Virus record (IMG/VR): IMGVR_UViG_3300029952_000088
Span: 1-33,754 of that record
Source: a virus
DNA: 33,754 nucleotides
Strand: one strand, 5' to 3'
Part shown: piece after piece, positions 1,671-9,183 of the stretch
How positions within the stretch are numbered: position 1 is the stretch's first letter
How the letters are laid out: the number at the start of each line of letters is the position of its first letter
The notes under the pieces: model-generated
Database searches by the model: none
Seen by the model: the letters and a program-made list of their open reading frames with translations, nothing else
Told to the model about the DNA's origin: nothing
Translations under genes and position numbers: made by a program

Positions 1671-2201
1671 ATGGCCGAACTAATCACATTTGACGAGGCA
1701 CATCGTCTCCTCGCCTACGATCCTGATGATGGGTCATTCGCCTGGCGTGAATCGCGGGGCGGTGAGTTTGCCGGCTCCCGAGCTGGCGGCCCGTACATCC
1801 ACACGAAGGCTGGCAAGAGTGGCAGCGCGGTGGATGTCTGGCTCTACCTGATCGGGATCAACTACCGCCTGTATCGAGGGCATCGACTCGCGTGGTTCAT
1901 GACTTATGGCGAGTGGCCGCCGCTCGTTGATCATCGGGATGGTGATCCACTCAACAACCGCCTGGGGAACCTGAGGCCAGCTACGCGCCGGGTGAACTCG
2001 CAGAATATGCGGCGGGCCATGCCCCAGAACTCCACGGGACTACTCGGCGCTGGCGTCGATGCGGAGCGCGGTGGATTCAAGTCGGAGATCAAGCTGCCAG
2101 ACGGAACGCGGAAGTTCCTCGGCCGATTCGCTACCGCCATCGAGGCGCACGAGGCGTACCTTGAAGCCAAGCGCCGACTTCACGAAGGATGCACCATCTA
2201 A
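1671..2201 (+). CDS. HNH homing endonuclease with AP2-like DNA-binding domain
   Basis: This is a free-standing HNH endonuclease of the HNH_3/AP2 type. The HNH core is at about residues 64-108: HRLAWFMTYGEWPPLVDHRD, then GDPLNNRLGNLRPATRRVNS and QNMRR, giving the His-Asn-Asn arrangement of active enzymes. The C-terminus (about 115-174) has the AP2-like pattern NSTGLLGAGV...GGFKSEIKLPDG...FLGRFATAIEAHEAY used for DNA binding. Such genes are selfish elements that cut and copy themselves into a target site lacking them. It separates terS from terL and its TAA stop overlaps the terL ATG (TAATG at 2199-2203), so terL translation may depend on it. It looks intact. A role in packaging-site cutting, as reported for other HNH proteins next to terminases, is possible but less likely with an AP2 domain. 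Confidence 0.9.
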   Translation: MAELITFDEAHRLLAYDPDDGSFAWRESRGGEFAGSRAGGPYIHTKAGKSGSAVDVWLYLIGINYRLYRGHRLAWFMTYGEWPPLVDHRDGDPLNNRLGNLRPATRRVNSQNMRRAMPQNSTGLLGAGVDAERGGFKSEIKLPDGTRKFLGRFATAIEAHEAYLEAKRRLHEGCTI

Positions 2202-3488
2202 TGCCGACCATCATCCTCCCTACCCTTCACCCGGGCCAAGTCAAAATCTACGAAGGGAGAGCGCAGCTGAACGTAGTCTGTTGCGGACGCAGGTTTCGGA
2301 AAAACAAAACTGATGTCTGCCATTGCAGGCAATGCCGCAGCCAAGGGCCGCAAAGCCGCCATCTTTACGCCTGAGCACAAGCAGTGGTCGGAGCCTTATG
2401 ACGAGCTGCTGGAGATCCTTCAGCCCATCAAGCGCAAGGCGAACAAGAACGAGGCCACCATCCGCACAACAACGGATGGATTGATCGACTTCTGGGCGAC
2501 CACTGACAACCCGCTGGCTGGGCGTGGTCGGGAGTACCACGTTGGCTGCATGGATGAGGCCGCATTCTCGAAGAACATCCAGATGACGCAAATTTGGACG
2601 CGCGCCATCAAGCCCACCTTGCTGACGACGCGCGGAAGTTTCTGGCTGTTCTCGACGCCGAACGGGATTGACCCGGACAATTTCTTCTACCAAGCGTGGC
2701 ACGACCCTGAAATGGGGTTCAAGCAATTCCACGCGCCGACTGCGAACAACCCCTATGTTCCGCCGGATGAGCTTGAAAAGGAGAGGCTGAAGCACCACCC
2801 GCTGACATGGAAGCAGGAATTCCTTGCCGAATTTGTGTCCTGGGATTCGTCAACTTTCTTCAAGCTGGACTATTTCATGGGCGCCGATGGCTTGCCGGTG
2901 AACTATCCGAACAAGTGCGACTATGTATTTGCAGTGCTTGACTGTGCCGCAAAATCGGGCACGGAGCATGATGGCACGGGGGTTCTGTATTGCGCCTTCA
3001 GTCAATACCACGGAGACAAGCTCGTCTGGCTGGATTACGAACTCCACAGCGTAGACGCGGCGATGTTGGAATATCTGGCGCCCAGCATCATGAAGCGATG
3101 CGATGAATTGGCTGCTCAGTGTGGCGCGCGCCGGGGCTCCATTGGATTATTCGTCGAGGATGCGGCTGGTGGGACGGTACTCATTCAGCAGGGGCAGGCC
3201 AAAGGCTGGCCGGTGACGCCGATCCCATCAAAGCTCATGGCGAAAGGGAAGGATGAGCGAGCCATGATCGCGGGCGGCCCAGCCTATCGAGGGGAGTGCA
3301 AAATTAGCCGCCACGCCTTCGACAAGGTGATCCCATGGAAGGGCCGAAACTTGAACCATCTAGTGCACCAGGTTGTGACATTCAGGATTGGCGACAAGGA
3401 TGCCAGCAAGCGGGCGGACGACCTGTTGGACACGGCCTGTTATTCAATCGCGCTCACACTTGTGAGCGAAGATGCTGTGGGCGACTAG
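2201..3488 (+). CDS. terL: Terminase large subunit, interrupted by a +1 frameshift in Walker A
   Basis: TerL is the ATP-driven DNA packaging motor and headful/cos nuclease. Translation from ATG 2201 gives an N-terminus ending VVCCGRRF and then leaves frame; reading one base further on restores GKTKLMSAIAG, that is a classical Walker A, and the frame continues to 3488. Joined, it gives about 428 residues, a normal TerL size. Walker B is HVGCMDEAAF (DE at 2553-2558), the motor coupling motif is FSTPNG, and nuclease acidic residues appear in FAVLDCAAKSGTEHDGTG and DDLLDTACYS. The zero frame alone would stop at 2374 after 57 residues, and a protein begun at ATG 2313 would lack the P-loop. The cause may be a sequencing error, an inactivating mutation or programmed frameshifting (TTT-C slip). 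Confidence 0.85.
2294..2298 (+). other. Candidate +1 frameshift or indel site in terL
   Basis: The zero-frame codons are AGG-TTT-CGG-AAA-AAC. Dropping a single T gives AGG-TTC-GGA-AAA-ACA, the expected R-F-G-K-T of the P-loop. A tRNA-Phe on TTT can re-pair with the overlapping TTC one base on, and this is the favoured codon for its anticodon, while the A-site CGG is a low-use Arg codon in many bacteria; these are features of +1 slippage. A plain one-base insertion would look the same. Confidence 0.6.
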
Positions 3489-3524: not shown

Positions 3525-4946
3525 ATGGCATCCATCGAAATCACCGGCTCTGGCCTGACATCCCCTCTCCAGCAAATCATGGGCTGCGACGAGATCGAGC
3601 CTGGCTCGCCGGCTGGATACTCGATGTGCAAGGCGCTGTGGGCAAATCTCGGCATCGCGGCCAAGCTCGTCGAAAAGCCGGTGGCGCTGGCCCTGAGCCA
3701 GAAGCGGCTGATCAATGTGCCGTGCGCCATCGAGGAGAAATTCGTGGAGGCGTTCAACCAGGAGTGGGAACGCCTGGGATGCACGAATCACATCCGAGAC
3801 CTGCACCACATCGCGCGCGCATATGGCGCCTCGGCGCTGATCGTGGGCTGGCCGGAAGTGGCAACTACGGAGCCCATCGACCTCACGTCCATTGCCGTGA
3901 CGGAGGGCCTGTACTTCAACACGTATGACCCGCTTAACCTGTCGGGCTCCATCGTCACGAACCAGAACCCGAACGCGCCCGATTTCCAGAAGCCGCGGCG
4001 CAACATCACGGCGGCCGGGCAGCCCTACCATCCGAGTCGGTCTGTCGTCGTGTTCAATGGCACGCCGATATATCTGGATTATCAGGCGTCCTCGTTCAGC
4101 TTCTCTGGCCGATCCGTTTTCCTGCGCGCCCTCTTTCCCCTGAAGTCATACATCCAGACCATGCTGGTCGATGACATGATCAGCATCAAAGCCGGCCTCA
4201 TCGTCGCCAAGATCAAGCAGGGCAGTTCGATTGCGAACAAGATCGCTGAGGCGGTGTCGGGCCTGAAGCGCGCCATGATCAAGATCGCTGGCGCCGGCAA
4301 CGTGTTGACCATCGACCCCTCCGAAGACATCGAGTCGATCAACCTCACGAATTTGGATGGGCCGTACAAGCTGGCGCGCGACAACATCATTGCCAACATC
4401 GCCACGGGCGGTGACGTACCTGCGATCCTGATAAAGGACGAGTCCTACGCCGAAGGCTTCAGCGACGGCGATGTCGATATGATGGCGGTCGTCCAGTACA
4501 TCGACGGCATTCGAGAGCAGATGCAGTCAGCCTGCGAGTTCTTCGACAAGATCGTGATGGCTCGCGCGTGGAACAAGGGGTTCTACGAGGCAGTGAAGGG
4601 CGAATATCCGGACGAAGTGGAGGCGACCTACGAGCTGTTCTACTCGAACGCCAAGCATCGATTCAAGGCCAAGTGGCCGACATTGATCAAGGAAAAGGAA
4701 TCCGAGACCGTCAAGCGAAACGCCGAGAAGCTGAAATCCATGTCGGATGTCATGAAGGTTCTCTTGCCGTCGCTCGATCCGGAGAACAAGGCCCGTCTCG
4801 TGGCCTGGTTCGTGGCAGCACTCAACGACATGAAGGACGTTTTCTCGGGCGAAATGGAATTCGACGAACAGGCGCTTGCCGACTACGAGCCACCTGCGCC
4901 GACGATGGGTGGCGCCCCAGGTGAGGGCGGCGGCGGTGGCGAGTAA
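3525..4946 (+). CDS. Portal protein (DUF1073-type)
   Basis: The portal forms the dodecameric DNA gate at one capsid vertex and docks the terminase. The 473-residue protein directly follows terL, the conserved position. It contains the elements expected of DUF1073/phage_portal_3 proteins: an N-terminal CKALWANLGIAAKLVEKPVA helix, a central SGRSVFLRALFPLKSYIQTM stretch, a long helical DDMISIKAGLIVAKIKQG region and LIKDESYAEGFSDGDVDMM. The C-terminus is acidic, ending in a Pro-Gly-rich tail (APGEGGGGGE). A GAGAGA ribosome-binding site lies about 10 nt before the ATG. The next gene starts inside its 3' end in another frame. No anti-CBASS HxT motifs were seen, so the portal role is preferred for this DUF1073 member. 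Confidence 0.8.
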   Translation: MASIEITGSGLTSPLQQIMGCDEIEPGSPAGYSMCKALWANLGIAAKLVEKPVALALSQKRLINVPCAIEEKFVEAFNQEWERLGCTNHIRDLHHIARAYGASALIVGWPEVATTEPIDLTSIAVTEGLYFNTYDPLNLSGSIVTNQNPNAPDFQKPRRNITAAGQPYHPSRSVVVFNGTPIYLDYQASSFSFSGRSVFLRALFPLKSYIQTMLVDDMISIKAGLIVAKIKQGSSIANKIAEAVSGLKRAMIKIAGAGNVLTIDPSEDIESINLTNLDGPYKLARDNIIANIATGGDVPAILIKDESYAEGFSDGDVDMMAVVQYIDGIREQMQSACEFFDKIVMARAWNKGFYEAVKGEYPDEVEATYELFYSNAKHRFKAKWPTLIKEKESETVKRNAEKLKSMSDVMKVLLPSLDPENKARLVAWFVAALNDMKDVFSGEMEFDEQALADYEPPAPTMGGAPGEGGGGGE

Positions 4947-5769
4947 GGCGCCAACGTTCTACGAGGAAATCACGGCGGCAACGCAGCATTTCCGAGAGTT
5001 TGGGTTTCGCTCGCAGAACCAATTGGACGAATGGGTGGCGCGTATCCGCCGAGCGGCCTTGTTGCAACTGAAGACTCCGGCCGAGACAGAACGGGTTCTG
5101 AAGCGCGCGCTGACCGAACGGTATTCCAATCTCATCACGAAGGCCGGTGTACTGAAGACCATGCCGGAGGTGTCGCGATTCACTCTGGACAAGCTCAAAC
5201 CGCAGCTTCGCAAGGAATTGGATCGGCGAATTCTGGCAAGCGCAAATCTAATCAAGCTGAACCGCGCGAAGGCCATCGACACGACGCTGAGCCGATTCCA
5301 GGGCTGGGCGACGGCAATCCCCGCGGGCGGTTCTAATGCCCCAGAAGCGCGCGCTGACAAGGAATTGATGCGCAAGGCTTTGGCAAGAATGCCATTCGAA
5401 GAGCGGCGCGTCATCATTGATCAGTCGCACAAGATGATCGCAGCCCTGCGTGATACGGTCGCAGTCGGAGGCGGCGCGCTGGCAGGCATCTGGCACTCGC
5501 CCTGGCGCAGGCCGGGCTACCAATATCGGGAAGACCATAAGGAACGTGATGAGCAGTGGTATGCCATCCGCGACAATTGGGCCATCGAAAAGGGCCTCAT
5601 GAAGCCTGGGTCGAATGGTTATCTCGACTCCATCGACGGCCCGGGATTCCTGCCGTTTTGTTCATGCAGCCTGCAATATGTTTTTTCGCTGAACAAGCTC
5701 CCGCCCGACATGCTGACGAAAGCCGGCATGTACGGCGTAACGTTGAAATCGACGGCGCCGCAGAGCTAG
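4936..5769 (+). CDS. Head morphogenesis / minor capsid protein (Mu gpF or SPP1 gp7-like)
   Basis: The start is placed at GTG 4936 (MASKAPTFYEE), with AGGTGAG at 4919-4925 as ribosome-binding site; an ATG at 4876 in the same frame would overlap the portal by 71 nt and encode an Arg-rich, less plausible leader. The chosen protein is 277 residues. The N-terminal two thirds are helical; the C-terminus holds the YREDHKERDEQWYAIRDNWA block and ends with PFCSCSLQYVFSLNKLPP, resembling the Cys-containing C-terminal motif of Mu gpF-like head proteins. Such proteins are minor capsid components that enter the procapsid with the portal and scaffold. Location between portal and protease/scaffold fits. Exact family not certain. 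Confidence 0.68.
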   Translation: MASKAPTFYEEITAATQHFREFGFRSQNQLDEWVARIRRAALLQLKTPAETERVLKRALTERYSNLITKAGVLKTMPEVSRFTLDKLKPQLRKELDRRILASANLIKLNRAKAIDTTLSRFQGWATAIPAGGSNAPEARADKELMRKALARMPFEERRVIIDQSHKMIAALRDTVAVGGGALAGIWHSPWRRPGYQYREDHKERDEQWYAIRDNWAIEKGLMKPGSNGYLDSIDGPGFLPFCSCSLQYVFSLNKLPPDMLTKAGMYGVTLKSTAPQS

Positions 5770-5785
5770 GACATAATCGCTACCC

Positions 5786-7501
5786 ATGGACGAACTCCCG
5801 ATTGCACCGCACGCAGGCCCGATGGGTCGCGCGGCCGGGATCATGTTCATCACGCCCGATGGGGAGACGCTGCTCCTGCGTCGTGGCGATGGCGGCGATT
5901 TCCCGCGCACGTTCGGATTCCCGGGCGGCCATCTCGAAGAGGGTGAAGATGACGAACAAGCCGCTCGACGAGAAACGCTGGAGGAAACTGGCTACGCCTA
6001 CGAAGGCCCCCTCACGCGCCTTTGCAGCGATCCGCAGTTCACTACTTTCGTTGCCAGAGACGTGGAAAAGTTTGAGGTCACGATCTGCGACGAAAGTACC
6101 GGATTCGCCTGGTGCAAGCCCGACCAAGCGCCGAGTCCGCTCCACCCCGGCTGTGAGCGAGCATTCCGAATCGCTGCCGCTGAAACTGAACTCGATGTTG
6201 CCCGACTGATTCGCGACGGCGACCTGCCCAGCCCTCAGGTCTTCCGTAACTCGATGCTGTTCGCACTGAGAATCACGGGCACCGGCCATGCATACCGATC
6301 CAGCGCTGAAGAACATGTCTGGCGTGACCCCTCCATTGTCCTGACCCCTGAATTTCTGGAGCGCTGTAACGGCCTGTTCGTGACGGCGCGCCATCCGGTC
6401 AAGGACACGATTGATACTGAGACTTTCTCGCAATCGGTCATCGGCGCGATCATGCTGCCCTATATCCAGGGCGAAGACATGATGGGTATCGCGCGCATTA
6501 TTGACCTGCATGCGGGCGCCGCCATGGGCCGGGTAGGCGCGAAATGGAGTACGTCGCCAGGCGTCGTATTTGCGAAATCGAGCGGCAATGTTAAAGTCTC
6601 GCTCAACGATGATAAACCCCTCCTAATCGAGGGCAATCCAGTGCTGATCGACCATCTCGCAATCTGCGATTTGGGAGTTTGGGACAAGGAAGGCCCCCCG
6701 GAGGGGGTGCAAGTTGACCAACCAATCGAGGTGAATATGGCAGGCGAAACGAGCGGCGAAACCAAGGTGGATTCCACCATCCCTTCGCTCAATGACGTCA
6801 TGCAGGCGGTGAAGGCGATTGCCGAAGGGCAAGGCAAGATTCACGCGCGCATGGATGCGTTCGAGAAGGACAAGCCGGCTGAGCCGCTGGAGACCGCTGC
6901 CGACAAGGCCAAGAAGGACGCCGAGGCGAAGGCCGAGGAAGAGAAGAAGGCGGACAAGGCGAAGAAGGACGCGGACGAGGCGATGATGGCCGACAAGGCC
7001 AAAAAGGACGCAGCCGAGGAAGCCGCCAAGAAGGACGCCTTCGAGAAGGAAGAGCAGGCCAAGAAGGATGCTGCGCTGGCCGCTCGCTGCGATGCTGACG
7101 AGACCGCCTACGCCGATGCCCAGGCCCGCGCCGATGGCGTGTACGCGATGTTCGGCAAGTCGGCTCCGCGCCGCATGGACGGCGAAAAGCTGATGGACTA
7201 CCGCCGCCGCCTCGCGCGACCGCATCAGACGCACAGCGCGGCCTACAAGGACGCCAAGCTGGACACCGTCACCGATGCCGCGGTGTTCAAGGCCGTCGAG
7301 GACGCGATCTACCACGACGCAGCCGCCGCATCCCGTACCCCGGGCGTTTACGGCGCCGGTCAACTGATCGCGATGACCTCGCGTGACGCCGCTGGCCGCA
7401 CGATCACCAAGTTCGGCGGCGACGTGGAGGCCTTCCTCGGCGACTTCAAGATTCCCGAGCAGCGCGTGACCGAGTTCCACACCCCGCAAGCCCGCCGCTA
7501 A
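5786..7501 (+). CDS. Nudix hydrolase - DUF2213 prohead protease - scaffold fusion
   Basis: A 571-residue three-part protein. Residues 1-145 are a Nudix domain with an intact box at 48-70 (GHLEEGEDDEQAARRETLEE then TGY), matching Gx5Ex7REUxEExGU; such domains cleave nucleoside diphosphate-linked compounds. About 150-315 is a DUF2213-like capsid assembly protease, with LFVTARHPVKDTIDTETF and DHLAICDLGVWDKEGPP. From 318 the protein is extremely Lys/Ala/Asp/Glu-rich (about 365-440, repeated DKAKKDA), a coiled-coil scaffold-like region, then a C-terminal part likely contacting the capsid protein. Protease and scaffold fusion is common upstream of capsid genes; the Nudix head is unusual. The substrate of the Nudix part and the protease catalytic residues cannot be stated from the sequence. 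Confidence 0.8.
   Translation: MDELPIAPHAGPMGRAAGIMFITPDGETLLLRRGDGGDFPRTFGFPGGHLEEGEDDEQAARRETLEETGYAYEGPLTRLCSDPQFTTFVARDVEKFEVTICDESTGFAWCKPDQAPSPLHPGCERAFRIAAAETELDVARLIRDGDLPSPQVFRNSMLFALRITGTGHAYRSSAEEHVWRDPSIVLTPEFLERCNGLFVTARHPVKDTIDTETFSQSVIGAIMLPYIQGEDMMGIARIIDLHAGAAMGRVGAKWSTSPGVVFAKSSGNVKVSLNDDKPLLIEGNPVLIDHLAICDLGVWDKEGPPEGVQVDQPIEVNMAGETSGETKVDSTIPSLNDVMQAVKAIAEGQGKIHARMDAFEKDKPAEPLETAADKAKKDAEAKAEEEKKADKAKKDADEAMMADKAKKDAAEEAAKKDAFEKEEQAKKDAALAARCDADETAYADAQARADGVYAMFGKSAPRRMDGEKLMDYRRRLARPHQTHSAAYKDAKLDTVTDAAVFKAVEDAIYHDAAAASRTPGVYGAGQLIAMTSRDAAGRTITKFGGDVEAFLGDFKIPEQRVTEFHTPQARR
6728..6739 (+). promoter_or_regulatory. Internal ribosome-binding site and start for scaffold
   Basis: GAGGTG at 6728-6733 lies just before an in-frame ATG at 6737-6739 inside the fusion gene. 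A GC hairpin (CCCCC-CGGA-GGGGG) lies about 30 nt upstream at 6694-6707. The ATG falls exactly where the protease-like domain ends and the coiled-coil begins, which makes a true internal start plausible. Confidence 0.5.
6737..7501 (+). CDS. Scaffold protein from internal start (nested, in frame)
   Basis: If translation starts at ATG 6737 (MAGETSGETKVDS), a separate 254-residue scaffold is made in addition to the full-length fusion. This is the arrangement of lambda C/Nu3, where the protease and scaffold share a C-terminus. The protein is highly charged, with repeats of DKAKKDA and EEKKADKAKKDADE and no Cys except one in AARCDADE, typical of coiled-coil scaffolds that are removed during maturation. 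The C-terminal 100 residues (AVFKAVEDAIYHDAAAASRT onwards) may form the capsid-binding end. The claim rests on the ribosome-binding site and domain boundary and not on protein data. Confidence 0.45.
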   Translation: MAGETSGETKVDSTIPSLNDVMQAVKAIAEGQGKIHARMDAFEKDKPAEPLETAADKAKKDAEAKAEEEKKADKAKKDADEAMMADKAKKDAAEEAAKKDAFEKEEQAKKDAALAARCDADETAYADAQARADGVYAMFGKSAPRRMDGEKLMDYRRRLARPHQTHSAAYKDAKLDTVTDAAVFKAVEDAIYHDAAAASRTPGVYGAGQLIAMTSRDAAGRTITKFGGDVEAFLGDFKIPEQRVTEFHTPQARR

Positions 7502-8157: not shown

Positions 8158-9183
8158 ATGAGCGGTTTCGCACCCTCCTACGTACTGGTTCACCCGAGCC
8201 ACATGATGCCCGAGATCATCATGCAGTACAGCATGGCGTCCGGCGCATTCGACATGCTGGCAACCCGCAATCCGATGGCTCGCCTCGGCGAGGGCGATCT
8301 CGTCGTCTACGCCAAGAAGATGCAGCTCACCACGCAGGTCTCGGCCAACCAATCGACGGCCAACCAGCTTCCGAGCGCCACGGTGATCCCGTCGATGATC
8401 TCGACGCCGACCTACCGGCTCCAGACGCGCTCGCAGTACGACGGCTTCGACCAGTCGGCCGCATCGAACTGGGGCTACGCCCTGCCTGAAGCCATGCGCT
8501 TGGCTGCCCGCCAGGGCATCGCCCAGCAGCTCCGCAATGCGCTGCTGTACGGCTACAACCCGGCGAACGGCGAGGGCATGCTGAACACGGCCGGCGCCAC
8601 CACGCTGAACCTCGGTTCGGACACGAACGGCAACACCGGCTACAGCACCTGGGACAGCGGCCAGCTCGCGCAATTCCTGCTGAACATGATCGGCGCGCTG
8701 AAGACCAAGACCCTGTTGATCGGGACGCCCCTGCGTTTGGTCTTCACGGCCCCGCAGCGGTTCATCTCGCAGATCAGCTACGGCGGCGTCGTCAGCCTTA
8801 CGCAGTTCCAGCGCATCGGCGCTGGCGTCGAGACGGTGGCCGGCATGGTCGAGACGGTTGCCAAGTGGGCCGGCGGCGACGATATCGTCTTCATGGCGGA
8901 CGACACGCTGATCGGCCAGGGCGCGGGCGGCACGGACGCAATCCTGCTGAATGCCCCGGAGCTGAAGATCCCGCGCGCCAAGTCGCAGATCAACACGAAC
9001 GACTTCGCCACGCTGACGCCGAATCAGCAAGCCACCGCGCTGATGCTGATCGATGTCCCGGCTCCGACCGAGATCCCGACGCCCATCGCGGACGGCGGCA
9101 TCACCACGCTGTACACCCTGCGCTCTTCGAGCGGCTGGGGCATCCGCCCCGAGGCCCTGACGATCCTCAGCGCCGGCTTCTGA
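8158..9183 (+). CDS. Major capsid protein (DUF2184-like)
   Basis: A 341-residue protein with the strongest ribosome-binding site of the region (ATAAGGAAA, 8145-8153). It follows the protease/scaffold and decoration genes and is closed by a hairpin terminator, as expected of the most abundant virion protein. Features resembling the DUF2184 capsid family are the N-terminal FAPSYVLVHPSHMMPEIIMQ, the central STPTYRLQTRSQYDGFDQSA, RLAARQGIAQQLRNALLYGY and the C-terminal SGWGIRPEALTILSAGF. It should form the HK97-fold hexamers and pentamers of the shell. No N-terminal delta domain is visible, consistent with a separate scaffold. Family name is from memory; the capsid role is well supported by context. 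Confidence 0.8.
   Translation: MSGFAPSYVLVHPSHMMPEIIMQYSMASGAFDMLATRNPMARLGEGDLVVYAKKMQLTTQVSANQSTANQLPSATVIPSMISTPTYRLQTRSQYDGFDQSAASNWGYALPEAMRLAARQGIAQQLRNALLYGYNPANGEGMLNTAGATTLNLGSDTNGNTGYSTWDSGQLAQFLLNMIGALKTKTLLIGTPLRLVFTAPQRFISQISYGGVVSLTQFQRIGAGVETVAGMVETVAKWAGGDDIVFMADDTLIGQGAGGTDAILLNAPELKIPRAKSQINTNDFATLTPNQQATALMLIDVPAPTEIPTPIADGGITTLYTLRSSSGWGIRPEALTILSAGF

Follow-up and report, generated by a model that had tools for sequence, protein, structure and literature searches.

Gene organisation at the locus

The window, as we term the whole stretch of viral DNA analysed here (33,754 nucleotides, positions 1 to 33,754 of IMG/VR record IMGVR_UViG_3300029952_000088), contains a block of head genes in which one open reading frame encodes a Nudix hydrolase domain, a capsid-assembly protease domain and a C-terminal scaffold part (Table 1). 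The gene is preceded by that of a MuF-like head protein, with the portal gene upstream, and is followed by a gene for a small conserved protein and then by the major capsid protein gene. PHROG 6216, a family without an assigned function, spans residues 16-565 of the product (E 2.2e-148), so that the whole Nudix-protease-scaffold layout constitutes a conserved family. In the predicted model the scaffold part begins as a low-confidence stretch rich in Lys, Ala and Glu and continues into a helical domain that is predicted with high confidence. The first-pass annotation of this DNA had recognised a Nudix domain, a DUF2213-like protease and a scaffold in a single 571-residue frame, and this identification of the domains is correct. 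Its "coiled-coil scaffold" is indeed a C-terminal scaffold but, given the confident helical domain, more than a coiled coil; its "one 571-residue polyprotein" agrees with the open frame but overlooks a conserved internal start at 6737.

Table 1. Features of the Nudix-protease-scaffold gene and of neighbouring head genes in the window
Feature	Coordinates	Strand	Details
Portal protein (context)	3525..4946	+	Phage_portal_3 E 2.7e-15
MuF-like head morphogenesis protein (context)	4876..5769	+	phrog_324 E 2.6e-18
Nudix-protease-scaffold gene	5786..7501	+	571 aa plus stop; open throughout
Nudix hydrolase domain	5825..6145	+	residues 14-120; PF00293 E 3.9e-16, 59.7 bits vs cut-off 21.1
Nudix box	5927..5995	+	residues 48-70 (G48-Y70), GHLEEGEDDEQAARRETLEETGY; GX5EX7REUXEEXGU, Thr at first U
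DUF2213-type capsid-assembly protease domain	6179..6736	+	residues 132-317; AlphaFold pLDDT 88.9
His203, proposed catalytic	6392..6394	+	invariant 54/54; aligns with His72, likewise invariant in the DUF2213 set
Ser255, proposed catalytic serine	6548..6550	+	invariant 54/54; aligns with the LSxGY serine of the DUF2213 set
His290, proposed third catalytic residue	6653..6655	+	invariant 54/54; aligns with the GNHxALV histidine of the DUF2213 set
Shine-Dalgarno GAGGTG of internal start	6728..6733	+	duplex energy -7.2 kcal/mol vs -3.5 for the gene's own start
Nested in-frame scaffold gene (putative)	6737..7501	+	254 aa from Met318; Met in 53/54 homologues with Shine-Dalgarno; separate gene in L071, L072, L094
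Conserved helical C-terminal scaffold domain	7091..7480	+	about residues 436-565; high-confidence model; invariant D450, E467, Y472, R475
Major capsid protein (context)	8158..9183	+	phrog_6671 E 4.7e-137; phrog_264 major head protein E 2.3e-8

Elsewhere in the window, the gene encoding the terminase large subunit (2189-3488) carries a +1 frameshift within Walker A, around 2293-2305, with CGRRF in one frame and GKTKLMSAI in the next. The frameshift is common to two contigs that are 98.4-99.9% identical to the window (L002 and L003); the terminases of relatives with a recognisable Walker A are read through in a single frame. This gene is either decaying or subject to programmed frameshifting, and directly upstream of it lies an HNH endonuclease gene (1671-2201, PF13392 E 4.9e-13) that is possibly a homing element. 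Some near-invariant positions of the protease are also changed in the window copy (e.g. W233 to M) and, taken together with the terminase frameshift, this indicates that the window phage genome may be decaying.

Nudix domain

All catalytic glutamates of the Nudix box are present in the window copy, in which the only deviation is a Thr at one hydrophobic position, and the best 50 Foldseek matches of the whole predicted model in the PDB are exclusively Nudix proteins. Degeneracy among the homologues, named beforehand as an outcome that would speak against the first-pass proposal, is not what we observe: the REx2EE motif is retained in 85 of 86 Nudix-bearing homologues. Asp replaces the first box Glu in nine of these 86, and in a single copy, L101, a metal-binding Glu has been lost. 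Values of dN/dS for the Nudix domain range from 0.02 to 0.20 among the 28 pairs listed, similar to those of the protease, which indicates that the domain is under purifying selection. From its sequence the Nudix domain appears to be catalytically competent. Among solved structures, NTP pyrophosphatases such as NudG and MutT give the best sequence matches, and no NCBIfam equivalog cut-off that would assign a substrate was reached. In comparisons of L021 with L023 and L038, dS is about 1.0-1.1 for the Nudix domain and 0.3-0.4 for the neighbouring protease, a threefold difference which hints at exchange of the domain by recombination at the junction.

Capsid-assembly protease

We refer to the protease of the window as a DUF2213-type relative rather than as a Pfam member because its score for DUF2213 (PF09979; window 6293-6454) is 12.9 bits, below the cut-off of 22. 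Within the family, PF09979 is matched by 34 of 54 members (alignment A2, best E 1e-8) and phrog_530 (head maturation protease) by 32 of the 54 homologues. The DUF2213 assignment, for which HMM comparison had been named beforehand as a test, held: alignment of the protease region (A3) with a set of DUF2213-type head maturation proteases (A4) by hhalign gave an E-value of 6.5e-6 and places H203, S255 and H290 onto three residues that are invariant in the latter set. Since the whole model retrieved Nudix proteins throughout its best 50 matches, residues 132-317 were folded alone and searched apart. The best PDB match of this predicted fold is T4 gp21 (probability 0.99, E 3.6e-3), followed by the herpesvirus assemblins, and every one of the top 30 is a capsid-assembly protease, with weak E-values. 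H203, S255 and H290 may form a His-Ser-His triad of the assemblin kind.

A probable nested start for the scaffold

Position 318, immediately after the protease, is occupied by Met in 53 of 54 aligned homologues, and the duplex predicted between the sequence preceding this codon and the 16S tail has a mean energy of -6.2 kcal/mol, compared with -1.9 at 740 other internal Met codons (p = 8e-27, with the standard anti-Shine-Dalgarno assumed and the homologues not being independent). The frequent occurrence of Glu-rich residues before Met318 could be taken to mean that the Met and its purine-rich stretch are merely conserved amino acids, specified by Glu and Gly codons, and not a translation start. 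We regard this as very unlikely, because a Shine-Dalgarno core is found in 51 of the 53 although the frames differ and with them the residues encoded (E-V-x, G-D-x or Q-E/P-x), which argues that it is a nucleotide signal that has been kept. In three homologues (L071, L072 and L094) a stop codon lies before this point and the scaffold is a gene of its own, beginning at the conserved Met behind a Shine-Dalgarno. The natural split sites are at 7090-7100 in L071 and at 1152-1172 in L094, with a further one in L072. The same signal also forms a single sharp peak in 70 other DUF2213 proteins, 97% of which possess a Met with a Shine-Dalgarno 20-40 residues past the third catalytic motif, as opposed to 0-14% in other bins of 20 residues. 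No such internal start is marked in the Mansfield record, in which ribosome-binding sites are annotated. For a Nudix-free form of the protease, no conserved start codon with a Shine-Dalgarno was found near residue 133.

Phage lambda (C/Nu3) and the herpesviruses (UL26/UL26.5) have a protease-scaffold gene from which the scaffold is also made separately, by way of a nested in-frame unit. The gene in the window resembles C/Nu3 in having a predicted in-frame internal start with a ribosome-binding site. It differs from lambda C, which has a protease of a different (S49-type) fold and no Nudix domain, and from UL26/UL26.5, which uses a nested transcript and likewise lacks a Nudix domain. The gene probably gives rise to two products in the manner of C/Nu3, namely the full-length protein and a separate 254-residue scaffold, and judging from the strengths of the two start signals the long form is probably scarce and the free scaffold abundant. 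The principal novelty of this analysis, as far as we have checked, is that DUF2213 proteases at large show such a nested scaffold start, a variant of a known arrangement; we found no report of it in the open-access literature, and it may still have been published elsewhere.

Junction between the Nudix and protease domains

In the predicted model the junction (residues 115-150) has a pLDDT of about 90-95, with helices at 121-130 and 135-143 that are separated by four residues, whereas residues 316-333 and 362-410 are disordered. The model thus leads us to expect proteolytic cutting after the protease and not before it. The first-pass annotation had suggested that the whole polyprotein enters the procapsid and that the protease then frees the Nudix domain as a soluble enzyme within the head. 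The three parts do share one reading frame and the protease looks active from its sequence, but the proposed release is not supported: the compact predicted junction makes it unlikely, we identified no conserved cleavage motif, and with an internal start the scaffold need not arise by cleavage. We therefore consider this scheme improbable. If the Nudix domain is delivered to the host, the model suggests that it probably travels as a Nudix-protease unit.

Loss of the Nudix domain and its other settings

The Nudix domain is missing at three separate places on the protease tree, represented by a clade of enterobacterial phages and prophages that includes Rac-SA53, by L056 and by L106. Nudix-less proteins start exactly at the Nudix/protease junction (MSLTELEVAER), and no Nudix gene was found elsewhere within the flanking sequence examined for these phages. 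The three absences and the position at which these proteins begin indicate that the Nudix domain is separable from assembly. As its catalytic residues are selected and yet the domain has been lost at least three times, we consider it an accessory enzyme and not a part of the assembly machinery: comparison of the sequences identifies it as an accessory module of head genes that is kept active by selection and is dispensable for assembly. Four members of the set of other DUF2213 proteins also carry a Nudix domain at their N-terminus.

Several further arrangements were encountered. In L056 (4638-5130) the place of the Nudix domain is taken by an acidic repeat together with a VSEKQ...GIPQSVGKEF motif at the N-terminus, and a short motif similar to that of L056 is found before the Nudix domain in Shewanella phage QDWS (L007). 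The jumbo phages XbC2, Munch and Kaldavass (L125, L127 and L128) have a related unfused Nudix gene immediately downstream of a tail sheath gene, or in Munch of a tail sheath stabiliser gene. Some public names are misleading (among L008, L010 and L011): a Nudix-protease of Yersinia phages is listed as "glycosyl transferase" and the Nudix-less homologue as "TolA protein".

Relationship to known systems

Fusion of a Nudix domain to a capsid protease is already known. NudE-like Nudix domains fused to MuF, portal and capsid-processing serine peptidase proteins have been described, with a proposal that they are packaged and injected (Iyer et al. 2022, PMC9503650), and a DUF2213-NUDIX architecture is shown in PMC8770471. 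The window gene belongs to the same class of fusion and falls under the same proposal, so the first-pass view that it would represent a new way to package an enzyme was anticipated by these two papers. As regards the NudE-like label, T4 NudE falls outside the group of head Nudix domains in our tree, in which branches are long and the deep ones supported too weakly to place the domain near either T4 NudE or MutT, and the nearest solved structures are those of the NudG/MutT kind mentioned above.

The search for Nudix-DUF2213 architectures suggested in the first pass did find them in phages, in PHROG 6216. Pantoea phage PdC23 (pdc_04) and Klebsiella phage Chronis (gp4) encode PHROG 6216 proteins with the same full-length Nudix-protease-scaffold layout at about 40% identity to that of the window, in the same gene order (terminase, portal, a hypothetical protein in the MuF position, the Nudix-protease-scaffold gene, capsid). 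They are annotated as NUDIX hydrolase only, with no mention of protease, scaffold or nested start. In the Bcep781 group a related Nudix domain (46-49% identity to that of the window) is fused to the C-terminus of the portal and not to the protease, whereas Burkholderia phage Bm1 has a related Nudix (39% identity) that is unfused and stands alone between MuF and the protease. In both cases, as in the window, it is encoded among the head genes, with a DUF2213-like head maturation protease close by. Searching viral contigs with the Bm1 protease gave no relatives.

Proposed role of the Nudix domain

The explanation that we favour, with a probability of roughly 0.6, is that a weak start yields little of the Nudix-protease-scaffold protein and a strong internal start yields abundant scaffold, with the Nudix domain carried in the head as an accessory enzyme. 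The start at 5786 would give a scarce 571-residue protein comprising the Nudix hydrolase, the His-Ser-His protease and the scaffold, and that at 6737 an abundant 254-residue scaffold running from Met318 to the end. Free scaffold and major capsid protein would form the procapsid core, which the long form would enter through the shared C-terminal part, bringing with it the protease and the N-terminal Nudix domain, such that the copy number of the Nudix domain in the procapsid would equal that of the protease. The protease would subsequently remove the scaffold, and the Nudix domain, not being needed for assembly, would stay joined to it as one compact unit. Most likely the head would then carry it, and host nucleotides or NDP-X compounds would be its targets at infection. 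Its entry into the procapsid is plausible, and our case for delivery draws on the recurrent linkage between Nudix domains and head proteins as well as on what Iyer et al. (2022, PMC9503650) proposed. In L071, L072 and L094 the Nudix-protease is separate from the scaffold, which implies that those phages do not require covalent tethering. Capsid proteases can also exit the head during maturation, so that a fused Nudix domain might not reach the virion.

The main alternative is that the Nudix domain acts in the producing cell, working late in infection to clean up oxidised or modified nucleotides or to clear nucleotide alarm signals, with the protease serving as a late-expression carrier and no delivery taking place. 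The similarity to NTP pyrophosphatases such as NudG and MutT and the occurrence of the Nudix as a separate gene in Bm1 are consistent with this; the repeated fusion to head proteins (protease and portal) in different phages argues instead for a location in the head, and we consider action in the producing cell possible but rather unlikely. It is also conceivable that the role of the Nudix fold is structural or regulatory and catalysis incidental, as it would be if the domain sensed nucleotides and thereby controlled the protease, or if it docked the protease. In most of the family it adjoins the protease, and the copies with Asp for the first box Glu, together with L101, would fit such a role. 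This is difficult to reconcile with the near-universal retention of the catalytic residues, with the repeated loss of the Nudix domain while the protease was kept and with its presence on portals or alone in other phages, and a structural or regulatory function is accordingly a poor candidate.

The reading that we favour, of a scarce long form, abundant free scaffold and a Nudix domain carried in the head, can be extended to a more ambitious scheme in which one gene with two starts sets the dose of a virion-carried enzyme. Each procapsid would contain few Nudix-protease units among many free scaffolds, and the Nudix domain, delivered with the DNA, would forestall the host response by destroying nucleotide alarm signals, NAD-derived or other; DUF2213 capsid proteases would have a nested scaffold start as a rule, overlooked in current annotation. 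In this full form the scheme is speculative and, on balance, unlikely.

Implications

The putative nested scaffold gene is absent from the annotations examined, and a relative of one DUF2213 protease is present in 991 phage records. If the nested start is real, a missing scaffold gene would be accounted for in a very large number of phages. If the Nudix domain does enter the virion, these phages would make it possible to test directly the idea, published but unproven, that phages inject nucleotide-cleaving enzymes as a first strike against host signalling, for which the Nudix-less relatives would provide natural controls.
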